A stretch of 64,000 nucleotides of DNA from Victivallis lenta. Lineage in GTDB: Bacteria > Verrucomicrobiota > Lentisphaeria > Victivallales > Victivallaceae. A program made the translations under genes and the position numbers. The stretch is taken from positions 1 through 64,000 of the forward strand of contig NZ_VUNS01000026.1 in NCBI RefSeq assembly GCF_009695545.1, given 5' to 3'. The stretch's first letter is position 1. Each line of letters starts with the position of its first letter. The notes under the pieces were generated by a model. It did not search any database. It worked only from the letters and a program-made list of their open reading frames with translations, and was not told the DNA's origin. Below are positions 3,459 to 26,582 of this stretch, piece by piece.

Positions 3459-4274
3459 TCAGCAGCTATAATCGCTTTTGAACGACATATGTGATTTGCG
3501 GAAGCGACTTGGTGAGTTGTGCTGAAGTTTGGCGAATGTCTTGGAAAAACAGTACTGATCGGCAAAACCGAGCTCCTTCGCAATCTCCTTGATGGAAAGA
3601 TTGCTGAAATGCAGAAGATAACAGGCACATTCGATTTTCCGGCGACGAACGAATGCCTGCGGACTCTCTTCCATCGTCGTGGAAAAGAGCCGGACAAACG
3701 CATTGCGCGCCAGGCCGCAATGATTCGCCAGCATATTGTTGTCCAGCTTTTCATTCAAATGCTCTGAAATGTATTTCAACGCGGCATGAATCCGGCGGTT
3801 GATGGGCAGTTCCTTGATCTCCATCTCCTCCGGGCAGCGCAACAGTACATGCCCCAACACCGTATGCGCAATCATTTCGCAGCGGATTCGCTTTTCATGC
3901 TGTTCATACAGCTGAATAAACTCCTTGATATGCTCCACCATGATCGAATCTTCGGCGATCTCGTAAATCTGCGTACCGGTGACTTTCGCAGAATCAATGA
4001 AGTTGAAATGAATGAAAAACTGTTTGAACGGTTTTTCCGCATGCGTTGAAAACTCATAATAAGCCGGAATCAGGTAAAAGCGTTTTTTCTGCATCCGCAA
4101 ACAGCCGTCTGCGCTTTCGATAATTCCCCCTTCCTCCATATTATAGAAAAGGCGCCAGAAGGGAGTATGCAGCTTAAATTGCATCCAAGGATAAATGTTG
4201 GTCATCCAGCCGCAAAACTGAATTTCAAACGGACAAGTTAATGTCCTGATGTCATCTGGCGCTAACAAACTCAT
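3459..4274 (-). CDS. AraC family transcriptional regulator
   Basis: A 271-aa regulator. Residues 1-160 form a sensing domain of cupin type without a sharp signature. Residues ~165-265 hold the paired helix-turn-helix of AraC proteins: NNMLANHCGLARNAFVRLF as the first HTH and SIKEIAKELGFADQYCFSKT as the second, followed by the usual P-x-x-[FY]-R end (SPSRFRKSH). It is divergently transcribed from the hydrolase gene at 4564, which together with the enzymes behind it is the likely target. The sugar sensed cannot be told from sequence. The gene is AT-rich compared with the housekeeping part of the window. Confidence 0.9.
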   Translation of the reverse strand: MSLLAPDDIRTLTCPFEIQFCGWMTNIYPWMQFKLHTPFWRLFYNMEEGGIIESADGCLRMQKKRFYLIPAYYEFSTHAEKPFKQFFIHFNFIDSAKVTGTQIYEIAEDSIMVEHIKEFIQLYEQHEKRIRCEMIAHTVLGHVLLRCPEEMEIKELPINRRIHAALKYISEHLNEKLDNNMLANHCGLARNAFVRLFSTTMEESPQAFVRRRKIECACYLLHFSNLSIKEIAKELGFADQYCFSKTFAKLQHNSPSRFRKSHMSFKSDYSC

Positions 4275-12943: not shown

Positions 12944-15190
12944 ATGTCTATTGCAACCCTAACTCCTGGAATCTTCTGGTATTGGAATTCTGATCCTTCC
13001 CCTGCGGGCATCAGAAAACAGCTTGCCCATATGCGTGACGTCGGTTATCGTTGCGTTTACCTGCACCCGATGCCCGACAACTATCACAAGTATTTTTTCT
13101 ACAAGGGCATGAAAATCGCCTATCTAGGGAAACGGTACTTTGAATTGGCCCGCGTGATGCGGGATGAATGCCGGAAACTCGGCTTGACCATGATGCTGTA
13201 TGATGAAGGCGGCTGGCCCAGCGGCGGCGTAGTCGATACGCTGGTCGTGAAATATCCCCGGGCCCGGGTATGCGCTTTGCGCAAAAAGCAGGATGGCTCT
13301 TTGGAAGAATTCCGGCTCGATGTCCCCGACCTGACCGATCCCGCCGTCACCGATCGTTTCATCGAAATGACCTATCAACGGTATTACGAAGAACTGGGAG
13401 AATCTTTCGGAAAGGAGATCAGGGGAATCTTCACCGATGAGCCTTTCTGGGAGTGTTATCTGCCCAAAGCTTACGTCGCCATTCCGGCCGGACTTGAGGC
13501 CGAACTGGTCAAATGCTACGGTATTCGGCTCCCGGACATTCTGCCGCTGCTCTTTGACGATGCCGCAGACACTCCCGAAACCAGGCGGGCCAGACAACAG
13601 TATGTGGACTGCTGTACGGCGCTTTTCGCCCGTAATTACACCGGAAGGCTGGCGGCCTGGTGCCGAAAACATGGTCTGGAATTCGAAGGGCATTTCCTTT
13701 TTGAAGACCTCTATTTCCGTACCGGATTTTTCTATGATTTTCCGCGAATCCTCGACGCGATGGATGTACCCGGCGTTGATGCGATCTTCCGCATGGTATA
13801 TCCGCACGGCGGACGCGGCAATTTCGCCCGTTTCGCGCAGTGTGCCGCTATCCGGAACAAACGCCCGGAAGCGCTGGCGGAATGTTTCAACGTCTACGGC
13901 TACGCGATGAGCACCCCGGCCATGGCGTATGTGGCCAATCTTCTGCTGACCAAGGGAATCAACCGCATATTGACGATGCCGTATCTGTACAGCGACCGCG
14001 GCTTGTGCAAGGTGAGCTGTTCCACCGATTATTCACCGCGCACCCCGATCTGGCGTCATCTGGCGGCACTGAACCGTCATCTGGAGTTCGCCGGGCAATA
14101 TCACGCGGGCATGCTCGAACCGGTAATCCGGGTGCTTGGCGTCACCAACTGCTTCGGCGGCAGCGACTATCAGAAACCGACGCCGGAAGCGGAGGCTTTT
14201 GCGGAAAAGGTCGAGCAAATGCAGGAAAACTTGGACGATGCTCTGGTCTTCTGGCGTATCTGTTCGGTCGACGAACTGAAGTCGGATGAAAACCGCCCTG
14301 AAGTTCTGATCGTGCCGGGTGAATTGGAAATTCCGGAGATCAAAGCCGCGGTGGAACACTGGCGGCAGGCCGGTACGCAGGTTATAGACGGCTTTCTGCA
14401 GCGGGATTTCCATTCTCTGAGCTATCTTGCGACGGATACAGCTTACCGGGATGTCCGGATTCTGCCTTGTCTCCGCGAAGAAGGCATGAGTCTGCTGGTC
14501 TTCAACGCCGGCGACAAGGATATCACATTCTCTTTCGCCGCCGCCGGAAAACACTACCGCGAATTGCCGCCGCCGGACGGAACGCTGGCGGTGTTTGCGC
14601 CGCTCCGTTTTGAAAACGGCCGCTATCATCTCCCGCTGCCGGCCTGGAACATGCGTATCCTGACCGTTGCGGACACCGCGCCGGCGGCACAACCGGCACC
14701 GCGCGAGTTCCGGAAAATCCGTCTTGACTGGAAACTGAAAAAGGTCGAGCGTCTGCGTTACAGCAAAGACGGCATCACAAAATATGAGAAAATCACCGAA
14801 AAACGGCCGCTTCCGTCAAGCGGCATGTACACAGAACTTGAACCGGAGTTTTCCGGTTCGATCGAGCTTGCGGCTTCATTTGAATCCCCCCTGGCCTTTT
14901 CCGGCTTTTTGAAATTCGACGATATCTGTTCCGGCGGTGAACTGTTCTTCAATGGCGTCAGCGCCGGAATGCGCGCCCAGCCGCCGTGGCTCTGGCGCGT
15001 CGAAGTCAGGAGGGGAACCAACCGGATTGTTTTGAACATCAATTCCACCGCGGGCAATGAATGGAAACGCTGCTTTCGTGAGGAACTTGAACCGGCCGGA
15101 TACTATAATGATTATATCAAGGAAATCAGAACCTATGAAAACGATTTTGCCGAATGCGGAGCGGCCCCCCGCCTCACACTCTATTGCTGA
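12944..15190 (+). CDS. GH106-like alpha-L-rhamnosidase family protein
   Basis: A 748-aa protein without signal peptide. It opens with FWYWNSDPSPAGIRKQLAHM, then YLHPMP, MMLYDEGGWPSGG and IRGIFTDEPFWE, the strand-end pattern of the GH106-like barrel in which acidic residues act in catalysis. A Rossmann-like segment (EVLIVPGELEIPEIKAAVEH) and a jelly-roll end (FSGFLKFDDICSGGELFFNG) follow. It is the first gene of an operon with a GH78 enzyme and L-rhamnose isomerase, which supports release of rhamnose. No strong ribosome site precedes the ATG. The family is diverse, so the exact linkage is open. Confidence 0.75.
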   Translation: MSIATLTPGIFWYWNSDPSPAGIRKQLAHMRDVGYRCVYLHPMPDNYHKYFFYKGMKIAYLGKRYFELARVMRDECRKLGLTMMLYDEGGWPSGGVVDTLVVKYPRARVCALRKKQDGSLEEFRLDVPDLTDPAVTDRFIEMTYQRYYEELGESFGKEIRGIFTDEPFWECYLPKAYVAIPAGLEAELVKCYGIRLPDILPLLFDDAADTPETRRARQQYVDCCTALFARNYTGRLAAWCRKHGLEFEGHFLFEDLYFRTGFFYDFPRILDAMDVPGVDAIFRMVYPHGGRGNFARFAQCAAIRNKRPEALAECFNVYGYAMSTPAMAYVANLLLTKGINRILTMPYLYSDRGLCKVSCSTDYSPRTPIWRHLAALNRHLEFAGQYHAGMLEPVIRVLGVTNCFGGSDYQKPTPEAEAFAEKVEQMQENLDDALVFWRICSVDELKSDENRPEVLIVPGELEIPEIKAAVEHWRQAGTQVIDGFLQRDFHSLSYLATDTAYRDVRILPCLREEGMSLLVFNAGDKDITFSFAAAGKHYRELPPPDGTLAVFAPLRFENGRYHLPLPAWNMRILTVADTAPAAQPAPREFRKIRLDWKLKKVERLRYSKDGITKYEKITEKRPLPSSGMYTELEPEFSGSIELAASFESPLAFSGFLKFDDICSGGELFFNGVSAGMRAQPPWLWRVEVRRGTNRIVLNINSTAGNEWKRCFREELEPAGYYNDYIKEIRTYENDFAECGAAPRLTLYC

Positions 15191-17543
15191 AGCCGCCCCG
15201 CTGATCATCGAAAAGGAAAAATTACCATTTTTCGCAGCCTGGATCACCCACCCGGAAGTAGCGAAACGGTGGCAGAAAGAGCAGACCTGCGAGGAAAACT
15301 TCTTTTGTGAATTTTACAGGGAATTCAACTGCGACCAGCTCCCGGAATCCATTCTTCTGCGGATTACGGCGGACAGTTGTTACCGCTTGTCGATCAACGG
15401 GAAAGAAGCCGGTTTCGGCCCGATCCGGGGAAGCGCCGCGCTGCAATATTTCGACACCAGGGAAATCGCCGGACTTCTGCGGCGCGGACGCAATGAGATA
15501 AAAGTCCTCGTCCACTCTCCCGTCCGGGAGAATTTTACTGCCGTAACCCGTTTCCCCGCACTGCTGGCGGAAGCGCCCGGATTATTCAGAACCGACGAAA
15601 CCTGGCAGGTTTCCCTGTGCCCGGAATTCCGGCGCGACGTGCCGGTTTATACGATGCAGATCGGTTTTATGGAGATGTGCGATCTGCGTAAACGCCGCGA
15701 ACGGGAATATCTGCCGGCTGCTGCCCTCCCGGAACCGCTCCCCTTCGGCGCACTGACGCCGCGCGACATACCGGCACCGGAAATCACGGAATGCCGTCCG
15801 GAAAAACTCACCGCCATGGCCGCGCTTCCGGCAGGCGACGCCCCGGAACTTTCCCGCCTTGCGGAATTTCTGAACCATGAACAATGGACTGCGCTGAATC
15901 CTGAAGATTTTAACGGAAAAATCCTCCCCTCCGGCAACAGTACGGCACTGGTCTGGGATTTCGGCAAGGTACTGAACGGCAGAATACAACTGGAAGTCAA
16001 CGCTCCCGCTGGAACCGTCGTCGACGTGGTTTACGGTGAAACCCCGTATCGGAAAGACGGGCGGTTGCGGGCGGCATTCCCCGGCGAATTTTACCGCTTT
16101 ACTGACCGCTATATTCTCGATGCCGGATGCAACCGGATCGGCACGACTCTTTTTGAGCGCGGTTTCAAGTTTGCAGAGTTCATCTTCCGCAATGCCGTCG
16201 ATACGATTGAAGTGGTCGACGTCCGGGCGGAAAACAGAGTTTATCCGTTCCGGCAGAAATGCTTCTTCCGGTGCAGCGATGAACGGCTGAACTGCATTTA
16301 TCAACAGTGTGTGGAAACACTGCGTGCATGTACGACCGATGTTTTCACGGATTGCCCGTGGCGGGAACGGGCGTTCTGGATCAATGACCTGCTTGTGGAA
16401 AATCGCACCTCACTCGTTCTTTTCGGCGCAACACCGGTACATGCCAGAGCGCTCAGACTGGCGTTTTCCCAGCAGCGCCCCGACGGGAGTGTCCCGAGTC
16501 TTTGCCCGATGCCGAAACATGAGAATTTCGTATTCCCGGCAACCGAACTTTTTCTTGTGTTGATGCTTATGGATTATTACCGTTACGGCGGCGATCCTGA
16601 AACGGTCGGAGAACTTCTGCCCAAAGCGGAACGTCTGCTGGAGCACTTCAATACTCTGCTGGATGATGAAGGATTGATCGGAATTACGCCGGGAATCTGG
16701 AATTTTATCGACTGGAGTTTTGAGTTGAATGGTTATTCTTTCAACGATTGCCGGGAATCCATGGTCAATTCACTTTACGTTCTGGCATTGCGGACGATTG
16801 TTGCGCTGGCGAAACAAAGCGGTTGTCGATTAAAGCGGAACCCCGAATTCTATCTGGTGCAGAGTGAACGCACGGCAGAGGCGATTGCCGGAAGGTTTTA
16901 TTCTTCTGGAAAAGGTTTCCTGACCGATGACGTGCTGTTTCATTCGGAAAAAAAGCAGCTTTCGAGCCTGATCGCGCAGGCTTTGGCATTGCTCGCCGGA
17001 ATCGGCGATGCTACAGTACGGGAAAAATTGAAAATTTCTCTGGCCGATGAATCACTGCTGAAACCGGAACTCTATTTATATTCATTTGTTCTGCAGGCGA
17101 TGGCACGGCATGGCATGATCCGTGAAGCGTTGGCAGTCATCCGCCGTTATTGGGGGAAAATTCTTGACAGCGGTTATCCCACCGTCTTTGAAGCGGGCGT
17201 TCACCAGTTCGGCAAGGATGCTTTCGGCGGCGCCGGAAGCATGTGCCATGGCTTTGCAACCGCTCCGGCGGCGTTTCTGCCGGAAAACATACTGGGCCTC
17301 ACTCCGGGCGTCGAAGGTAATGGAAAAAAATTTGCATTTCACCCCGCTCCAGGAGATCTGGAATGGGCGGAAGGGGAATTGCTCCTCTCCGAAAATACGT
17401 CCGTACAAGTCAGATTGACCCGGGAAGAAATCCGGCTTACCCTGCCGGAAGAACACTCGGCTGAACTGCCGGACGGCCGCATACTCGAAGCCGGAACACA
17501 TCTACTCAAATGGGAAAACATAAACGGAGGACTTATATCATGA
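15135..17543 (+). CDS. GH78 alpha-L-rhamnosidase
   Basis: About 802 residues if started at the ATG at 15135, which has AAGGA 11 nt upstream and overlaps the previous gene by 56 nt. The frame extends to 15057. The N-terminal half is made of beta-sandwich domains (DSCYRLSINGKEAGFGPIRG, LVWDFGKVLNGRIQLEV). The catalytic alpha/alpha-barrel follows with the hallmark DCPWRERAFWIND near residue 405, which contains the family's acidic residues. A small C-terminal beta domain (EGELLLSENTSVQVRL) closes the protein. It hydrolyses alpha-L-rhamnosides and lacks a signal peptide, so the substrate is probably imported. It overlaps the next gene as ATGA. Confidence 0.9.
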   Translation: MKTILPNAERPPASHSIAEAAPLIIEKEKLPFFAAWITHPEVAKRWQKEQTCEENFFCEFYREFNCDQLPESILLRITADSCYRLSINGKEAGFGPIRGSAALQYFDTREIAGLLRRGRNEIKVLVHSPVRENFTAVTRFPALLAEAPGLFRTDETWQVSLCPEFRRDVPVYTMQIGFMEMCDLRKRREREYLPAAALPEPLPFGALTPRDIPAPEITECRPEKLTAMAALPAGDAPELSRLAEFLNHEQWTALNPEDFNGKILPSGNSTALVWDFGKVLNGRIQLEVNAPAGTVVDVVYGETPYRKDGRLRAAFPGEFYRFTDRYILDAGCNRIGTTLFERGFKFAEFIFRNAVDTIEVVDVRAENRVYPFRQKCFFRCSDERLNCIYQQCVETLRACTTDVFTDCPWRERAFWINDLLVENRTSLVLFGATPVHARALRLAFSQQRPDGSVPSLCPMPKHENFVFPATELFLVLMLMDYYRYGGDPETVGELLPKAERLLEHFNTLLDDEGLIGITPGIWNFIDWSFELNGYSFNDCRESMVNSLYVLALRTIVALAKQSGCRLKRNPEFYLVQSERTAEAIAGRFYSSGKGFLTDDVLFHSEKKQLSSLIAQALALLAGIGDATVREKLKISLADESLLKPELYLYSFVLQAMARHGMIREALAVIRRYWGKILDSGYPTVFEAGVHQFGKDAFGGAGSMCHGFATAPAAFLPENILGLTPGVEGNGKKFAFHPAPGDLEWAEGELLLSENTSVQVRLTREEIRLTLPEEHSAELPDGRILEAGTHLLKWENINGGLIS

Positions 17544-18742
17544 AAAAACTGAAATTCGGAATCATTGGGACCTGCTGTCGCGGCGAATTAGGAGATTACG
17601 CCCATCAGGCGGCAAACGGAGTGGAGATCGTCGCCGGTGCGGATATTTATGAAGAACAACGCCGGAGCTTTGCCGAACGCATGAAGGCAAAGCAGGCCGT
17701 CGTCAATATTTATGCCGACTATCGGGAGATGATCGAAAAAGAAAAACTGGACGGCGTATTCATCACTTCGCCCGATTTCTGCCACGAGGAACAGGCATGT
17801 TTTGCCTTGCGGCGCAAAACCGCGGTTTATCTGGAAAAACCGATCGCCATCTCCATCGAAGGCGCCGACCGGATTCTGCGGACGGCCAAAGAGAACAGAA
17901 CCCATCTGATGCTCGGCCACAATATGCGCTACATGGAATTTACGAATCGGATGCGAGAAATCATTCTGTCCGGCATGATCGGTGAAGTCAAGGCGATCTG
18001 GTGCCGGCATTTCGTGAGCTATGGCGGCGATGCCTATTTCCGTGACTGGCATGCCGACCGCAGGAACACCTGTTCGCTGCTGCTGCAGAAAGGCGCACAT
18101 GACATCGATATCATCCACTGGCTGGCGAATTCCCGCTCCGTCAAGGTGAACGGCATCGGTTCCCTGAGTGTTTACGGCAGCATCCCCCGGCGTCCGGCCG
18201 GATGCGAGCGGCTTGACACTTTGACGGTTCAAGGCGTCTGGTCCAATTCCCACTGGCCGCCGGAGGCGCAGAAAGATTATTACCCCGAGGTCAATAACGA
18301 GGATCTCAATATGATCAATCTGCAGCTTGCCAACGGCGTGCAGGCATGTTATCTGCAGTGCCATTTCACCCCGGACACCTGCCGCAATTATACGGTGATC
18401 GGTACGCGCGGCAGGCTGGAAAACTATGGCGATTACGGCAAAGACTGTTCCATTCAGGTGTGGACAAGACGCACGGACCGTTTTCAGCTCGAAGGCGATA
18501 TGACTTACCGTATGGCTTCCCCGGAAGATCAGCCCCACGGCGGCGCCGATCCGAAAATCGTTCAGGGCTTCATCGATCTCCTGCGTCATGGGACCCCGCC
18601 GGAATCGACTCCGCAGGGAGCCCGTTATGCCGTTGCCGCCGGTGTCAGAGGGGCGGAATCCATCCGCAGCGGCGGCATGATGCTGGATATTCCGGCATTG
18701 CCGGATGATCTGGAGAATTATGATTTCGCCGCGTTGCAATAA
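17540..18742 (+). CDS. Gfo/Idh/MocA family oxidoreductase
   Basis: A 400-aa NAD(P)-dependent sugar oxidoreductase. The N-terminal Rossmann fold starts KKLKFGIIGTCCRGELGDYA and contains the EKP motif at residues 99-101 (VYLEKPIAIS). The catalytic His occurs in LLLQKGAHDIDIIHWLA of the C-terminal alpha/beta domain. The start is fixed by GGAGG and an ATGA overlap with the GH78 gene. In this operon it may oxidise or epimerise a sugar released with rhamnose. The substrate cannot be read from sequence. Confidence 0.9.
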   Translation: MKKLKFGIIGTCCRGELGDYAHQAANGVEIVAGADIYEEQRRSFAERMKAKQAVVNIYADYREMIEKEKLDGVFITSPDFCHEEQACFALRRKTAVYLEKPIAISIEGADRILRTAKENRTHLMLGHNMRYMEFTNRMREIILSGMIGEVKAIWCRHFVSYGGDAYFRDWHADRRNTCSLLLQKGAHDIDIIHWLANSRSVKVNGIGSLSVYGSIPRRPAGCERLDTLTVQGVWSNSHWPPEAQKDYYPEVNNEDLNMINLQLANGVQACYLQCHFTPDTCRNYTVIGTRGRLENYGDYGKDCSIQVWTRRTDRFQLEGDMTYRMASPEDQPHGGADPKIVQGFIDLLRHGTPPESTPQGARYAVAAGVRGAESIRSGGMMLDIPALPDDLENYDFAALQ

Positions 18743-18777
18743 TGGATGGAACCGTTTTATCTATAAAGGATTGAAAA

Positions 18778-20037
18778 ATGGCCCGAATTGAGAAATGTTA
18801 TGAATTGGCGCGTGAGATTTACGCGGAGCATCAGGTGGATGTCGACGCCGCGGTGGCGCGGCTTGAAAAAGTGCCGGTATCCATTCATGCCTGGCAGGGG
18901 GATGATGTCACCGGTTTTGAAAACACCAGTCATGCGCTGACCGGCGGCTGCCAGGTCACCGGCAGTTATCCGGGACGCGCCCGCACAGCCGATGAACTGC
19001 GTGACGACCTTGATGCCGCTTTAAAGCTGATTCCGGGACGCCACCGGGTCAATTTGCAGGGGCATCAGGTGGATAAAATGCTTCCGGGCGTTGATCGTGA
19101 CGGCTTTACTCTTGAGAATTTTTCCGGGTGGCTGGACTGGGCCGCAGCACGGAATTTGACGGGGCTTGACCTCGCTCCGGCGTTTTATTCTCATCCGAAT
19201 CTGAAAGACGGGCTTTCGCTTTCGCATCCTGACGCAGGCATCCGCCGCTTCTGGATCGACCACGGCAGGGCCTGCCGGAAAATCGGCGCCGATTTTGCGA
19301 AAAAGCTGGGTTCTGCCTGCATCTGCAATTTCTGGGCCCCGGATGGTTTCAAAGACACCCCTTCGGATCGCCTGGCGCCGCGGCGGCGGCTGCTGGCCTC
19401 GCTGGATGAATGCTTTGCCGAAAAAATCTCCGGTGATCTGGTACGCGACGCCATTGAGTCAAAACTTTTCGGCATCGGGGCGGAATCCTGTACCGTTGGT
19501 TCGCATGAATTCTGCATGCTTTATGCCATGCGCAAAAAGAAAATGCTTTGTTTTGATTCGGGGCACTTCCATCCGACGGAATCGATCGCCGACAAACTGT
19601 CCGCCATTTTCTGCATGATGGATGAAATCCTGCTGCATGTCAGCCGGGGCGTCCACTGGGACAGCGATCATGTGACCGTGCTCAACGACGAACTGCTCTC
19701 CATCGCCCGCGAAGCAGCGGTTTACGGTTATCTGGATAAGGTTCATCTGGCGCTTGATTACTTTGATGCCAGCATCAACCGGATCGCCGCCTGGGTCATC
19801 GGCTGCCGCGACCTGCAGAAGGCGCTGCTGATTGCATTTCTGGAACCTCCCCGCGCCTGTCAGTTGGAAAAGCAGGGAGACTTTACCGGACGGCTTGCGG
19901 CACAGGAAGATGCCAAATCGCTGCCCTGGGGAGCCGTCTGGGATTATTTCTGTTACAGACATGACTTGCCTGCCGGCATGGGGTTCATGGACGAGATCAG
20001 AGCTTATGAGAAAAAAATAATGGAAATACGCAAATGA
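18778..20037 (+). CDS. rhaA: L-rhamnose isomerase
   Basis: A 419-aa enzyme, the usual RhaA length, converting L-rhamnose to L-rhamnulose (EC 5.3.1.14). Family landmarks run along the protein: VSIHAWQGDDVTGFE and GGCQVTGSYPGRAR near the N-terminus, LDLAPAFYSHPN, CICNFWAPDGFKD, CFDSGHFHPTESIADKLSA with metal-binding acidic and histidine residues, and VSRGVHWDSDHVTVLNDEL. AAAGGA precedes the ATG. No rhamnulokinase (rhaB) or aldolase (rhaD) is in the window, so the rest of the pathway must be elsewhere. The start of the next gene overlaps its stop as ATGA. Confidence 0.95.
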   Translation: MARIEKCYELAREIYAEHQVDVDAAVARLEKVPVSIHAWQGDDVTGFENTSHALTGGCQVTGSYPGRARTADELRDDLDAALKLIPGRHRVNLQGHQVDKMLPGVDRDGFTLENFSGWLDWAAARNLTGLDLAPAFYSHPNLKDGLSLSHPDAGIRRFWIDHGRACRKIGADFAKKLGSACICNFWAPDGFKDTPSDRLAPRRRLLASLDECFAEKISGDLVRDAIESKLFGIGAESCTVGSHEFCMLYAMRKKKMLCFDSGHFHPTESIADKLSAIFCMMDEILLHVSRGVHWDSDHVTVLNDELLSIAREAAVYGYLDKVHLALDYFDASINRIAAWVIGCRDLQKALLIAFLEPPRACQLEKQGDFTGRLAAQEDAKSLPWGAVWDYFCYRHDLPAGMGFMDEIRAYEKKIMEIRK

Positions 20038-21026
20038 CTTTTATCAAAGGAGAAACCGTGCTGTTCGCCGCTTCGGCCGATGCTTCACTGGCATTCCCGC
20101 CATTGAAAATACGGCGAATGTACAACTCGGCAGCCGGAATCGATTTTCAGATTGGCAGAGATATCGAGTGGACGCCCGGCAGTCTCCGGCTGACGCGCCC
20201 CGCAGGGTCGGCGGTGCCGTATCTGACGCATGATGATTTGTATCCTCCTGCCGATCAAGCCGTATTTTATCCCGCGCAAGGAGCGAACGCGGTTTCCGGT
20301 GGCCCGAATGGTGCGGCCATTCGCTTCGACAGTCGTGATTTTTTCGCCCGGCATCAGCTTGAGGTCGATTACTGGACGGAAGCCCCCATTCCGCCCCTGA
20401 CGGTGTTGACCGGAAAATTACCCCGTTTCCGCAGCAACCCGGCTCTGAAGCTCGCATTCGTCGGCGACAGTATCACCGAAGGTGCAAATGCATCGAAATT
20501 TGTCGGTGTTCCTCCCTTCCAGCCATCCTATGCGGAATTGACTGCCGCAAACCTGCATGCGGCGGAAACGCGTAACTTTGCAGTGGGAGGGACCGGCTGT
20601 CTGCATGGAATCATGCATCTGGAGTCATGGCTGAACGATTTTCTTCCTGACCTGATGTTCGTTGCTTACGGCATGAATGATCTCACCGGAATGACTCCTG
20701 CAAAATTCCGGTCGTCGATCATGGAACTTATTTTGATTGCCCGCAGGTACAACCCGGTTATGGAATTCGTGCTGATCGGTTCCATGCCGGGCAATGCGGA
20801 GTGGAAGTGCACGCCGCCCGCCGCGACACGGGCTTTTGCGGGGGAACTTGACGCGCTGGCAAAGACAGATGCCGGAATCGCCTTCATCGATATCGGAGGA
20901 TATTGGGAGAAATATTTTGCCAATAAAAAATTCCGGGATCTGACAGGCAACGGCGTCAACCATCCGAATGATTTCGGGCATCGTTTTTATGCAGAGACGA
21001 TTGCCGATGCCCTTGCTTTGAATTAA
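20034..21026 (+). CDS. SGNH/GDSL-family hydrolase, probable carbohydrate esterase
   Basis: A 330-aa protein. An N-terminal beta domain (~1-130) precedes an SGNH hydrolase domain. The nucleophile Ser146 is in FVGDSITEG, the oxyanion Gly in NFAVGGTGC, the Asn in VAYGMNDLTGM, and the Asp/His pair in NGVNHPNDFGHRF near the C-terminus. All four blocks are intact. Such enzymes remove acetyl or other acyl groups from sugars. Its place as last gene of the rhamnose operon, overlapping rhaA by 4 nt, suggests deacetylation of rhamnose-containing glycans. No signal peptide is present. Confidence 0.85.
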   Translation: MTFIKGETVLFAASADASLAFPPLKIRRMYNSAAGIDFQIGRDIEWTPGSLRLTRPAGSAVPYLTHDDLYPPADQAVFYPAQGANAVSGGPNGAAIRFDSRDFFARHQLEVDYWTEAPIPPLTVLTGKLPRFRSNPALKLAFVGDSITEGANASKFVGVPPFQPSYAELTAANLHAAETRNFAVGGTGCLHGIMHLESWLNDFLPDLMFVAYGMNDLTGMTPAKFRSSIMELILIARRYNPVMEFVLIGSMPGNAEWKCTPPAATRAFAGELDALAKTDAGIAFIDIGGYWEKYFANKKFRDLTGNGVNHPNDFGHRFYAETIADALALN

Positions 21027-21391
21027 AACCGGCTACTCTTCCCGCCATTCCCGACAGGAGTCACTGGGAATGGAGTGGCACCATTTCGGCTTCCTAGAAC
21101 TCAAATCAGGAGATAACGTAATGGAACGGGAAAGGCATGGTCGTGATACTGGCGAGAACAGTTGTCGGAATATTAGGATGACGGTTTAACGATCCAGAAA
21201 TATTGTGAGCTGAAAGATTTGCTGTATGAGAATGTACGTTGCTGGATAGGAGAACATGAAGGGAAATCATCCCTCCGTGCTAGAAGAAAAATATGAGAAA
21301 ACAAAAAAGGAATGCAGAGTTTGCTGACTTCTGGTAAAAGTATGGTCCATGATTATTTATAATAAAGTCACAACATCTAGGAGGTATGACA
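21027..21391. other. Intergenic region with a 22-codon frame and an IS-like fragment
   Basis: About 365 bases. A 22-codon reading frame at 21121-21189 has AGGAG 8 nt upstream and could be a leader peptide. In another frame, ~21177-21298 encodes LTIQKYCELKDLLYENVRCW ending at TGA, which resembles the small DNA-binding orf of IS66- or IS3-type elements but has no start. Composition shifts from GC-rich to AT-rich here, marking the left side of the accessory island. Confidence 0.35.
21045..21073 (+). terminator. Stem-loop at the end of the rhamnose operon
   Basis: An 8-bp perfect stem (CCATTCCC with GGGAATGG, 13-nt loop) lies 18 nt after the esterase stop. There is no T-run, so it may stabilise the mRNA end rather than act as a classical terminator. 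Confidence 0.35.
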
Positions 21392-22612
21392 ATGGCACAG
21401 AAGACGCCAGGAGCTTCTATCCCCATTACAAATTACAGGCGAAATATTTGCCCGTCAGAGAAGATGCTCTTTGCGAAGGTTGCAGAAGATTTTTCAAAAC
21501 AGAAGTTGACCTTGTTAAACTGCGACTGGAAACAATCGGCAAAAATTATTCAAATGTCGCGTGTGAACGAGCGTCTTTCGAATCAGCTATATCAACAAAA
21601 TACAAATCCACTATCGGAACCAACTTGCTTAGAAAATTATAATGTTTCTATCAGCGATGTTCCCCAGGCGTTAACAGTACTTTGCCATTTTCCATTTACC
21701 TATAGCTTTAGCGAAAACCTGATGATATCACAGGTCGATCAAGGTGGAAATTATTTGGCAGTAACTCTTCCACGCTTGCTGCATACTCCTTTTTATTTTT
21801 TGCGTTTATTTGTTCATGACAAGACAATAACAGAATATAGTTATGACGAATACGGATTTCAAAAGTCAGAATATCTGATGGCTGAAAAACTTGCATCCGA
21901 GTATGGATATGCAGGAAGTTGGGGAGGGGATTATCCCGAAATTATGGCAGGAGGCTTCCTGGCTTCGCCTTATTTGTTGGCTGAACATAGCGAATATGGT
22001 CGCCTGTTTTATATTTATGATTGCAGGGATAAGATAAGTTGTTTATTTGAAATGATTCCTGTGGGGAAAGATGTATTAGTCTTGCCGTGCAGTTATCGAA
22101 ACCGAAATGGTTTATCAGGACTTTCCAAGGTATATTTTCAACAAAGTGCCAATGTTTTCATTTGGGGCATGGATAAAATCTGTACTCCTGCGACTGGGCA
22201 TGTGATCCTCTATCATAACCCCGGCATTATGCGTTTGAAATTTCCGAATGATTCAGTAGCAACAGGATGTATTCTCGGTGGACTTGATTCGATTCCCTAT
22301 GTATCCTGTGAAGGGCTGCATAAAAAACAAAATCATATTTTGATTTCTGAAAATACATTTGATCTTGCTTTTGCTTTGAACCTTGCAGTTACCATGAAAA
22401 GACAAGGCGTTCCTGTGGTTCGCTTTATGAAAATTGAATCTGCCAACCGGAACGAAACAGATTATAACTGGGACGGGATAATGTATCCGGCAACGCAGTT
22501 AAGCGATATGCAAATTCAAAAAATCACTCCTGCGGAATTGCGGTTACTGGCTGAATCCAATGGAGTTCAAATTCCGGAAAATTTTGTAAATTACTTTGAG
22601 CAGGTTTACTGA
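21392..22612 (+). CDS. Unknown protein paired with a RepA-like ATPase
   Basis: A 406-aa protein of unknown family, AT-rich compared with its surroundings. The second ATG is chosen because AGGAGGT lies 6 nt before it. The ATG at 21386 abuts that ribosome site. The N-terminal ~80 residues are basic and helical (KVAEDFSKQKLTLLNCDW). The middle is a beta-rich domain (TLPRLLHTPFYFLRLFVHD, FYIYDCRDKISCLFEMIPVG). The last third alternates hydrophobic strands and helices (NHILISENTFDLAFALNLAV) in a way that recalls TOPRIM-like or nucleotide-binding folds, though no catalytic motif is certain. It overlaps the ATPase gene as TGATG, so the two are translationally coupled and probably work together. Confidence 0.8.
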   Translation: MAQKTPGASIPITNYRRNICPSEKMLFAKVAEDFSKQKLTLLNCDWKQSAKIIQMSRVNERLSNQLYQQNTNPLSEPTCLENYNVSISDVPQALTVLCHFPFTYSFSENLMISQVDQGGNYLAVTLPRLLHTPFYFLRLFVHDKTITEYSYDEYGFQKSEYLMAEKLASEYGYAGSWGGDYPEIMAGGFLASPYLLAEHSEYGRLFYIYDCRDKISCLFEMIPVGKDVLVLPCSYRNRNGLSGLSKVYFQQSANVFIWGMDKICTPATGHVILYHNPGIMRLKFPNDSVATGCILGGLDSIPYVSCEGLHKKQNHILISENTFDLAFALNLAVTMKRQGVPVVRFMKIESANRNETDYNWDGIMYPATQLSDMQIQKITPAELRLLAESNGVQIPENFVNYFEQVY

Positions 22613-25047
22613 TGGATACACAAAATGGACTGAAAGAGTTCTTTGTAAATTTTTTTGTGCCGATTGACAATATTCCGGAGGATACAGCCTGGCGTAATTC
22701 TATCAGCATGGAAGCACGTGCTTCCATGCTGATAGATAATGCTTCTCTGGAGGATTTGTCTTCGCTTTTCAATGTATGCATCAATGAAAATGTTCTTACT
22801 CTTAAATTGCCTGCCCCACTGTCGGTTCAAGTTACTGCACCGACGACTTTTCCCGCACCCACGACAGTCGGATACACCTACGTAAATGTATGTTATTCTT
22901 GGAATTTTTCCAGTTACTGCATAACGAGAACAGAAACAACAACTGACTACTTCCAGATTAGTGGACGCTGGCATATAAAAGATTCATTGTTTGAGAGAAG
23001 TAAATGCGAAAATCTCTTGACGCTAAATTTACACAATGCAAAACCCTCTTTTTACTGGAATGACTCCGGAGCTGTAAATATTTTGCATGATTGTTCAGGT
23101 AAACTTCAAGAGGAGTTGAAAAAGCATTTTGCTGAGCATTCGACTTTCCAGTTGGCAGAATCATTAACTTCCTATAATACTCCGGGGAAAATCTGCCGTT
23201 TCTTTCGTAAGGAAGCATTGCCGCTATCACCGATTTCTTTGTCTCATCATCTCTCACAGCTTGAAGAGGGTGTTTCGACAATACCATTCGAGCCTGTCAT
23301 TTCTGGACAAAGTGAAGCTGAAAGTGTTCACGATTCCTTAAAAAGCATGTTCTCGGCAAAGCGATTGCCAAGTCCATTATTAGAATATCAACCCAAAGTG
23401 TATGAGAAATCGCAACAGTTTCTTTTTCCGTTCAAGGATGAAGATAACTATACGGTTATGACTGTATTGAAATGTTATGATGATACTTTTCAGCGGAAAA
23501 ATTTCCTGCCTGTGACACGCTGGCGGGTCAAGCATACTCTTCAACGATATTGTATGGCTGTTCCGGGGGAAAAGAAATTATCCTTATTCAATTTGCAGGA
23601 GCTGGCTGCTTATCCGGAGGCCCCTGTCATATTGACCGACAGCCTTGAAATAGCCGCCCTTAATCAAGCAAAGATAGAGCCGGAGAAATTGATTTTCACC
23701 AGTTTTATGTGTGATGATGGACATTATGATCAGGTGGATTGGAAGCCGTTAAAAGGTCGTCTGCCTTATCTGCTTGTCACGAATCATTCAGGCAGAACAT
23801 TCGAAGAAGCCTGTTTGAAAACCGGTAAGCTGGCAGATTATTTGAAGGAATCTCAAGCAATAGAACTTCAGTTCGTTCGCGTTCCTGTCTGGTATCGTCC
23901 TCTTCCTGTTCTGCATAGTATTCAAGAGTTGATCTCGGCATATAAAGCAGCTCCCCCGCTGCCTTATAAAGAAGATATACGGATATTGACGTCGGAAGAG
24001 TTTGAAACGATTCGAGAAACGGCAGAGCAGAGGATTGACATACCGCCGGAAGCATGGTGGAAAACAGAACGGGAGCGGCTTGCCTTATCGCCACAAGCTT
24101 CAACAGATATTCTTGAAGTGACAAATATGAATCGGTTGGACTACATTCTCTGGCCTTTTCTTGTCCGCGGTAAAGGAACTCTGCTGTATGCGAGCAAGGG
24201 GATCGGTAAAAGTGCGTTAGCTCACAGCATTGCTGCTTGCTTGAGCAGTCGGCAAAAGAGACGGTTGTTTATAGAAAACAGCTGGGGAGCAAGCAAGGGA
24301 AACTTTGACTCTTATAAAGTTCTGTATCTTGATTTTGAAAATCAGCCTAATGAACATCAGGATTTTTTAAAACGGATGTGCCGAAAGTATTGGCATACTG
24401 AAAAAAACGAAACAGAGAAAGATGCAAAGAACTTTCTTTGGAAAAACATGCCTGAAATAGGGTTGTCAGGAATCAATTTTACTCTTCCCGAAAATCATCA
24501 GAAGTTATTGGATTTGCTTGATAAAGCTCAGAATGAAGGAGAATCAAATCATCCGGTGGATGTACTCATTATCGACACTTACCATGAATTTACGAGTTTG
24601 AGTGATGAGGTAAACACTCATCGCGGTTTGCGGGCGCTTTTGCGGATACTCAATGAGCGTAATTTAGCCACTTTGATTTTAAACCATGCCAAAGCGTCAG
24701 ACTCGCAAAAAATGTCGGGTTACAATATCATCAAAGAATCTTTTGCATATGTGATGAAACTCAGGCGGGAAGGTGAACAATCCCGACCTCTTTCGGAACC
24801 GATAACAGTCAGCTTCGACGCTGTCCGAACAGGCTGGCTGGGACGGGAACAAACGGTGTTTAAAATATATCAGCCGGAGTCACCGGGCAGATGGCATCTC
24901 TACTCGCCCGGATGTTCTGCAACGGAAGAACGGAATCGGATAAGAGACTACTACATCAAGGTAGAAAAGTTTGGAAAAGAGGAAATGGCAAAACTACTCG
25001 GAACATCTCCAGCTTCGTTATATCGTGATGTAAAAGATGCTGATTGA
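22612..25047 (+). CDS. RepA/AAA_25-like ATPase, plasmid- or phage-type helicase
   Basis: An 811-aa protein. Residues ~1-500 do not match a family I know, but VILTDSLEIAALNQAKI and the strand-helix pattern after it resemble a TOPRIM-like segment as in primases. Residues ~520-720 form a RecA-type ATPase: Walker A ASKGIGKSALA near 526-536 and Walker B VDVLIIDTYHEF near 648, followed by TLILNHAKASDSQKMSGYN, as in RepA/Gp4-type hexameric helicases. The C-terminal ~25 residues are a helix-turn-helix (EEMAKLLGTSPASLYRDVKD). This layout fits a primase-helicase of a mobile element. GTGCC repeats downstream could be its origin or operator. Low GC suggests transfer. No integrase is seen. Confidence 0.75.
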   Translation: MDTQNGLKEFFVNFFVPIDNIPEDTAWRNSISMEARASMLIDNASLEDLSSLFNVCINENVLTLKLPAPLSVQVTAPTTFPAPTTVGYTYVNVCYSWNFSSYCITRTETTTDYFQISGRWHIKDSLFERSKCENLLTLNLHNAKPSFYWNDSGAVNILHDCSGKLQEELKKHFAEHSTFQLAESLTSYNTPGKICRFFRKEALPLSPISLSHHLSQLEEGVSTIPFEPVISGQSEAESVHDSLKSMFSAKRLPSPLLEYQPKVYEKSQQFLFPFKDEDNYTVMTVLKCYDDTFQRKNFLPVTRWRVKHTLQRYCMAVPGEKKLSLFNLQELAAYPEAPVILTDSLEIAALNQAKIEPEKLIFTSFMCDDGHYDQVDWKPLKGRLPYLLVTNHSGRTFEEACLKTGKLADYLKESQAIELQFVRVPVWYRPLPVLHSIQELISAYKAAPPLPYKEDIRILTSEEFETIRETAEQRIDIPPEAWWKTERERLALSPQASTDILEVTNMNRLDYILWPFLVRGKGTLLYASKGIGKSALAHSIAACLSSRQKRRLFIENSWGASKGNFDSYKVLYLDFENQPNEHQDFLKRMCRKYWHTEKNETEKDAKNFLWKNMPEIGLSGINFTLPENHQKLLDLLDKAQNEGESNHPVDVLIIDTYHEFTSLSDEVNTHRGLRALLRILNERNLATLILNHAKASDSQKMSGYNIIKESFAYVMKLRREGEQSRPLSEPITVSFDAVRTGWLGREQTVFKIYQPESPGRWHLYSPGCSATEERNRIRDYYIKVEKFGKEEMAKLLGTSPASLYRDVKDAD
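22699..22736. repeat. 38-bp perfect palindrome inside the ATPase gene
   Basis: Two 19-bp arms with no spacer are exact reverse complements, centred between 22717 and 22718 and lying about 90 nt into the coding region. Translation crosses it as SISMEARASMLI, and the same residues are encoded on the opposite strand. It could extrude a cruciform, bind a dimeric protein or form a strong mRNA hairpin near the start. Confidence 0.9.
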
Positions 25048-25444
25048 TCCGATTGCATTTTTTTGTTGAGATGATATAGTATTTATAGTTGTTTGATTTC
25101 AGGATTGGAGCCGGGGTACCACTCTTTTTAAAGGGTGCCATCGGGTGCCGTTTACAAGGGAAAAAGTGCCGAAAAGTGCCGTTTTTACGATCTTGGAAGC
25201 CTTGCAAAACCATCAGGTCAGAACGATAGTTTTTCGTTTCAGACCAATGGGTTGTAACTTATTTTGAGCTCAAGCTGCGGGTAGTTGGCTCTACACTTTG
25301 GGTGTACCACCTTTGTGCAAGCTTTGTGTAACTTCCGATCTTTATTGTCTCTCTGCGTGCGACTAACGTAAGGACAGCGGCCGTTTTTGTGCAGGTACGG
25401 CAATTTCTGCTGCGAGGGCTGCCGGGGCGCGCCGGTTTCGCGGT
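25048..25444. other. Intergenic region with repeats, right side of the AT-rich island
   Basis: About 400 bases with no credible gene. The first part is AT-rich and holds the GTGCC repeats. A second cluster of short repeats (CTTTG at 25296, 25311 and 25322) lies in 25290-25335. GC content rises sharply from about 25375. This is the likely right boundary of the island. No tRNA or obvious attachment repeat was found. Confidence 0.45.
25133..25181. repeat. Phased GTGCC repeats, iteron-like
   Basis: GTGCC occurs at 25135, 25145, 25166 and 25176, with spacings of 10, 21 and 10 bp. The pairs therefore lie on one face of the helix, and the block is an imperfect 31-bp direct repeat (each pair is followed by GTTT..AC). 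It lies about 90 bp after the ATPase gene. Iterons of this kind are typical of plasmid origins or operators. Confidence 0.6.
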
Positions 25445-26433: not shown

Positions 26434-26485
26434 AATAACGCCGGTATGAATTAAAAGCAAATAACGCCGGTATGAATTAAAAGCA
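26434..26485. repeat. Two tandem 26-bp direct repeats
   Basis: Two identical copies in direct contact (26434-26459 and 26460-26485), each containing AACGCCGGTATGAATTAAAA. They lie between a divergent AraC regulator and a hydrolase gene, just downstream of a TATAAT. AraC proteins often bind direct repeats, so they are candidate operators. A recent slippage duplication is the alternative. Confidence 0.85.
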
Positions 26486-26582
26486 AATCTTTATGGAGAC
26501 ATTCCAGCAGGGACAATTAGGGCGTTCAGTATAATAACGACTGTTGTTTTATAGACCTTTACCATAGGATGATTTGATTGCT

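Follow-up and report, generated by a model that had tools for sequence, protein, structure and literature searches.

A gene pair of Victivallis lenta as a putative integrase-less copy of a small integrative element of Lentisphaerota

The segment from about 21080 to 25317 of the 64,000-nucleotide stretch of Victivallis lenta DNA analysed here (the window) probably represents a small site-specific integrative element, spread through Lentisphaerota, in a copy that carries no integrase, a reading to which we give a probability of about 0.68. Comparison with related loci makes it likely that the element is integrated and mobile by nature, and we lean, somewhat more cautiously, to the view that one of its two genes encodes the element's replication ATPase. 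In our judgement the window copy is either non-autonomous or decayed and belongs to a family of integrative elements specific to this lineage; it has lost its integrase or never had one.

Two genes lie here on the forward strand: gene A (21386-22612, 408 aa), which belongs to no database family, and gene B (22612-25047, 811 aa), which encodes a RepA-like ATPase. The TGA of A overlaps the ATG of B. An earlier note on this DNA had described a coupled pair of lower GC, one product being of no known family, set between a rhamnose operon and an AraC regulator, and all of this holds. Between 21 and 25 kb GC drops to 0.40-0.44, from 0.53-0.57 upstream, and it is back at 0.56 at 25-26 kb; GC3 is 0.36 in A and 0.40 in B, as compared with 0.63 for the rhamnose isomerase gene rhaA and 0.58 for a GDSL gene, both upstream, and 0.75 for the AraC regulator downstream. 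These are the lowest GC3 values among the 40 long ORFs of the window, that of B being tied by an unrelated 592-aa gene at 26574 (also 0.40), and the codon use of the pair differs from that of the flanking genes; the host-like codon use that the note had named as a refutation is not seen. As had also been noted, no integrase, capsid or relaxase gene is found within the island; in relatives, integrases do stand alongside. The lack of an integrase in the window copy, and of any tRNA gene in the window, counts against the element reading. No RNA families were found in the corresponding test.

The protein encoded by B comprises an uncharacterised N-terminal region, an alpha/beta region at about residues 325-430, a RecA-type ATPase of the RepA/AAA_25 kind at about 505-720, and predicted helices at 770-810. 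The RecA-type core that had been read from the sequence is recovered as Pfam AAA_25 (E=1.5e-11), and the label "RepA-like" proves correct by profile search, the B family profile matching RSF1010 RepA (1g8y) with E=1.1e-7. AAA_25 was matched in all 13 family members, and the ATPase motifs are conserved, G532-K533 of the Walker A motif being invariant across the family and S534 nearly so. It is the ATPase core of B that matches RSF1010 RepA, a hexameric replicative helicase (PDB 1g8y/1nlf/1olo) of 279 aa in the deposited chain. B is longer by about 490 residues at its N-terminus and by a helical end at its C-terminus, and its neighbourhood showed no plasmid genes of the RSF1010 type. In the AlphaFold model of B (pLDDT 65, usable for the alpha/beta and ATPase regions alone), the stretch 325-430 comes out, at good confidence, as strands alternating with helices, in an order that fits TOPRIM. 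Residues D343, S344, E346, D376 and H392 are invariant in the close B family, and at the positions of the TOPRIM motifs (conserved glutamate, DxD) B reads TDSxE and NHSG; the region has no Pfam or PDB match. Judged by eye, it looks TOPRIM-like, of a non-canonical kind without the usual acidic motif.

A C-terminal domain of A (residues ~227-352) aligns with B 292-425 at a probability of 81%, unrelated control proteins giving at most 0.5%, except one at 18%; the two domains are probably distant paralogues. The single-sequence AlphaFold model of A (pLDDT 32) is unusable. The N-terminal half of B and the whole of A represent protein families without any named relative. The coupled two-gene layout, the variable middle of A and the island position would fit an anti-phage defence pair, with A as sensor and B as ATPase, and a defence module had indeed been suggested. 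In PADLOC, however, A has no match and B only a weak one to an ATPase (E=0.02), no effector-type domain was found, the dN/dS of A, taken over its full length, gives no sign of diversifying selection (0.24-0.36 among the copies in this genome, with 0.20-0.27 for B), and B relatives that lack A adjoin integrases and replication genes. We regard a defence role as highly improbable.

Returning to the element reading, the window belongs to contig C26 of a 5.5-Mb genome in 78 contigs, and the same genome holds two further full-length B genes, on C37 (93% identity) and C42 (80%). A accompanies B on C26, C37 and C42 only, with 76-77% identity between its copies, giving three A-B copies on three contigs; three more B relatives, on C9, C8 and C11, are partial or divergent. 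A search for the same pair in other genomes, as had been proposed, gave relatives of A in G046, G034 and G006, in no case beside B in the loci examined, so that A and B are not an obligate pair. DNA identity extends over 21381-25337 to C37 and from about 21120 to C42. Over its first 480 residues B is close to the C42 copy, and in the ATPase half synonymous changes have reached saturation, from which it follows that the copies are mosaics whose B halves have been exchanged near residue 480. The C42 unit ends within a GDSL gene, of which an intact, 99% identical copy is present on C5. Near the A-B pair of C42 (L102, L009) there are also genes for a sliding-clamp-like protein, a PD-(D/E)XK nuclease, a DUF932 protein and a DUF3990-type toxin, a cluster that is partly repeated on C11.

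The perfect palindrome that had been reported is real; it spans 38 nt (22699-22736) and sits within the coding sequence of B, in the stretch encoding SISMEARASMLID. We considered it as an attachment site or origin and, as a feature of the family, rejected it: it is identical in the three A-B copies, and the corresponding sequence of more distant B relatives is not palindromic. Since the three copies carry no synonymous changes in that stretch, its identity reflects homogenisation. Probably it arose when a quasi-palindrome became perfect, gene conversion then carrying it to the other copies; it may still have a role in the three A-B copies.

The defined end of the element is the right one. A conserved terminus of 230 bp (25087-25317, forward strand), ending in ...CTTTGGGTGTACCA, recurs on C37, C42 and C11 and in the genomes G144, G061, G009, G016 and G132, with unrelated DNA next to it at other loci. 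At nine loci, the window included, similarity stops at GGGTGTACCA (as in the window) or CCGGGTACCA (GGGTGCCA in G016) and different DNA follows, weak similarity running slightly past the end in G009 and C42. A defined terminus abutting different host DNA is thus found for the right end only. Within it are five GTACC/GTGCC boxes (25116-25181, forward strand), probably among the repeats that the earlier note had in mind, and we propose them as recombinase arm sites or iterons; the other copies hold four or five. In the 711 kb of loci, apart from the termini, clusters of at least four boxes occur only just upstream of an integrase on C42 and in a pair of related short segments from genus g17. Random sequence of that length would yield about 0.9 cluster, a comparison to be read with the reservation that the observed clusters are not independent, most being homologous to each other. 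The C42 integrase is a tyrosine integrase of the DUF6538 type (L009 2220-3992); it adjoins the C42 terminus, and a direct-repeat array of GTGTACCA (4019-4060) lies directly upstream of its start. It is tempting to propose that the right terminus is a recombinase site. The terminus has no match in IMG/VR or in phage records. As for the g17 segments, they are stand-alone short GTGCC arrays (L165 8882-8923, L167 7844-7885), one of them near a transposase-like ORF and the other between two genes.

The terminus precedes a hipBA module in C42, C11 and G009. In G009 (its own C37, L163 9702-11660), the hipBA bounded by this terminus adjoins restriction-type genes; beside the terminus there is what appears, by eye, to be a remnant of the B C-terminus, and no intact B. 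Since it accompanies hipBA there, the terminus serves more than one cargo and is not specific to A-B, which counts against the element reading. Past the terminus of the window copy, the stretch 25318-25337 (forward strand) is still identical on the C37 of V. lenta, and therefore one of the two may have carried some flanking DNA; past the point where similarity stops at the nine loci, C26 and C37 have about 28 bp more in common.

The left end is imprecise. The sister genome G009, of the same genus, is 94.8% identical over 12944-21079 and then continues into other DNA, and no A or B was found in it by search; the left flank of the insertion covers 21080-21380 (forward strand). Within it, 21120-21305 is a frame-broken HTH remnant that is present in the C42 copy and absent from the C37 copy. 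It resembles the beginning of a tnpA gene of the IS66 type, the HTH assignment itself being weak (E=0.032 against PF01527, below the cutoff). The comparison for empty sites that had been recommended gave one side, the left flank of G009, which lacks the pair; a clean two-sided empty site for the window copy was not found, which counts against the element reading. Among six other genomes of the genus, a B search gave G144 only, as the end of B and the terminus at a contig end, and in G061 the contig starts just at the B end. By these comparisons the pair is not fixed at this site, and the fixation in all relatives that the note had named as a refutation is not seen.

Counting the window's own, 12 of the phylum's 289 genomes carry relatives of B. 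A species-level collection holds 17 such loci, titled Lentisphaeria, Lentisphaerae or Victivallales apart from a single bin under the label Clostridia. The family appears to occur almost only in Lentisphaerota, chiefly in Victivallales. No B was found in PLSDB, INPHARED or IMG/VR; the well-known plasmid family that would have disposed of the pair is not in evidence, no plasmid record matching it. The description of the pair as an undescribed system stands in that no family name, phage record or plasmid record matches, and falls for the ATPase core of B, which is known. Under the terms tried, we found no paper on mobile elements of Lentisphaerota.

At no fewer than nine distinct loci, B adjoins a tyrosine integrase, usually convergently and with little or nothing between. 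In six distinct loci the integrase is preceded, at a distance of 34-250 bp, by the end of a tRNA-Ala, tRNA-Ser, tRNA-Met or tmRNA gene. An AlpA-like HTH_17 gene, a YagK/G2P-type Rep and a Pif1-like helicase are further components of larger relatives. With the integrase directly behind a tRNA or tmRNA gene, these six relatives resemble tRNA-targeting integrative elements and islands; they differ in that B-family units are very small (often just an integrase and B) and show no conjugation genes, and no tRNA adjoins the window copy. Neither a search for direct repeats around the integrase-B units nor a comparison of the tmRNA site, by its flanking gene, in 11 relatives gave a second boundary. In the tRNA-associated relatives the distal end showed no duplicate of the tRNA end, which leaves their second boundary undefined and counts against the element reading.

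The minimal replicating or satellite element that had been suggested is largely upheld by the RepA homology, the several genomic copies, the common terminus and the integrase and tRNA/tmRNA context of relatives. A strict phage satellite, replicated on induction of a helper phage and packaged in helper capsids like P4 or PICMI, would be a further step. In its favour are the compact layout of relatives, with an integrase, in some an AlpA-type HTH gene, and a replication ATPase at tRNA/tmRNA sites, and their toxin-antitoxin cargo. PICMIs are defined by an integrase, AlpA and a DUF3987/DUF5906 primase, beside fis (PMC10803314), and P4-like satellites by homologues of psu, delta, sid, alpA, epsilon and alpha together with an integrase (PMC8628076). 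Like the PICMIs of Vibrionaceae, the present elements are small and combine an integrase with one replication protein; unlike them, they have AAA_25 in B, are not inserted beside fis and belong to another phylum, and the window copy has neither integrase nor AlpA. Many relatives share with P4-like elements an integrase and a replication ATPase near the two ends, as well as toxin-antitoxin cargo, whereas A and B match none of the P4-like marker genes just listed, and sites and phylum differ. The element family would thus work like the P4/PICMI core of integrase and replication ATPase and has neither defining gene set. Since, moreover, B carries no DUF3987/DUF5906 or P4-alpha primase domain, the proteins, like the terminus, are without match in IMG/VR and phage records, and no helper is known, we consider a strict satellite quite unlikely. 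Nothing tested supports a defence system, a plasmid or a phage.

A more serious alternative, which we hold to be a real possibility at somewhat less than even odds, is that A-B is the now immobile remnant of a larger integrative element that decayed by deletion and once carried integrase, HipBA, DUF932, PD-(D/E)XK nuclease, sliding-clamp-like and toxin-antitoxin genes. It shares its origin with the reading preferred here and differs from it on present mobility. C42 and C11 bear these modules around B, toxin modules of the HipBA or DUF3990 type stand close to B or to relatives of it on C42, C11, C9 and C8, and decay is common, the B of C8 being decayed and that of C9 lacking the RecA domain. 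Against present immobility, A and B are intact and under purifying selection in three copies, and the right ends of C26 and C37 are nearly identical, which suggests recent movement or conversion.

If the window copy is indeed an integrative element, a tyrosine recombinase acting in trans (such as the DUF6538 integrase of C42), or formerly in cis, would bind the GTGCC/GTGTACCA boxes of the terminus and there insert or excise it. B would be a RepA-like helicase working at the element's origin, its N-terminal half and C-terminal helices serving in DNA or partner recognition. A, probably translated in a coupled manner with B, would stem from the same N-terminal module and play an accessory part, possibly as initiator or regulator, and the toxin-antitoxin cargo of relatives (HipBA, DUF3990 type) would stabilise the element. 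Because the tRNA-adjacent integrase family differs from the terminus-adjacent DUF6538 one, two mobility modules may be mixed here. A bolder proposal, which we put forward tentatively and consider rather unlikely, is that DUF6538 tyrosine integrases act in trans to move a family of non-autonomous cassettes peculiar to Lentisphaerota (A-B, hipBA and mixtures), all sharing one recombinase-recognised terminus, a GTGCC array ending GTACCA, and that B is a new type of replication protein joining a RepA ATPase to a non-canonical TOPRIM-like module. If true, such cassettes would be a distinct class of hitch-hiking elements. Should the terminus prove to be a site at which recombination takes place in trans, it would show how toxin-antitoxin cargo spreads in Lentisphaerota. 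The recurring unit of integrase and B behind tRNA/tmRNA genes, for its part, would mark islands in this phylum.

Two minor observations may be added. A perfect 26-bp tandem repeat of 2.1 copies (26434-26488) lies in the window between the genes for AraC and for the 592-aa protein. The B relative on C9 (L010 6431-7966), which is without the ATPase half, starts about 10 bp past the stop of a transporter gene, and in L092 the B gene follows a transporter end that looks similar to that in L010.
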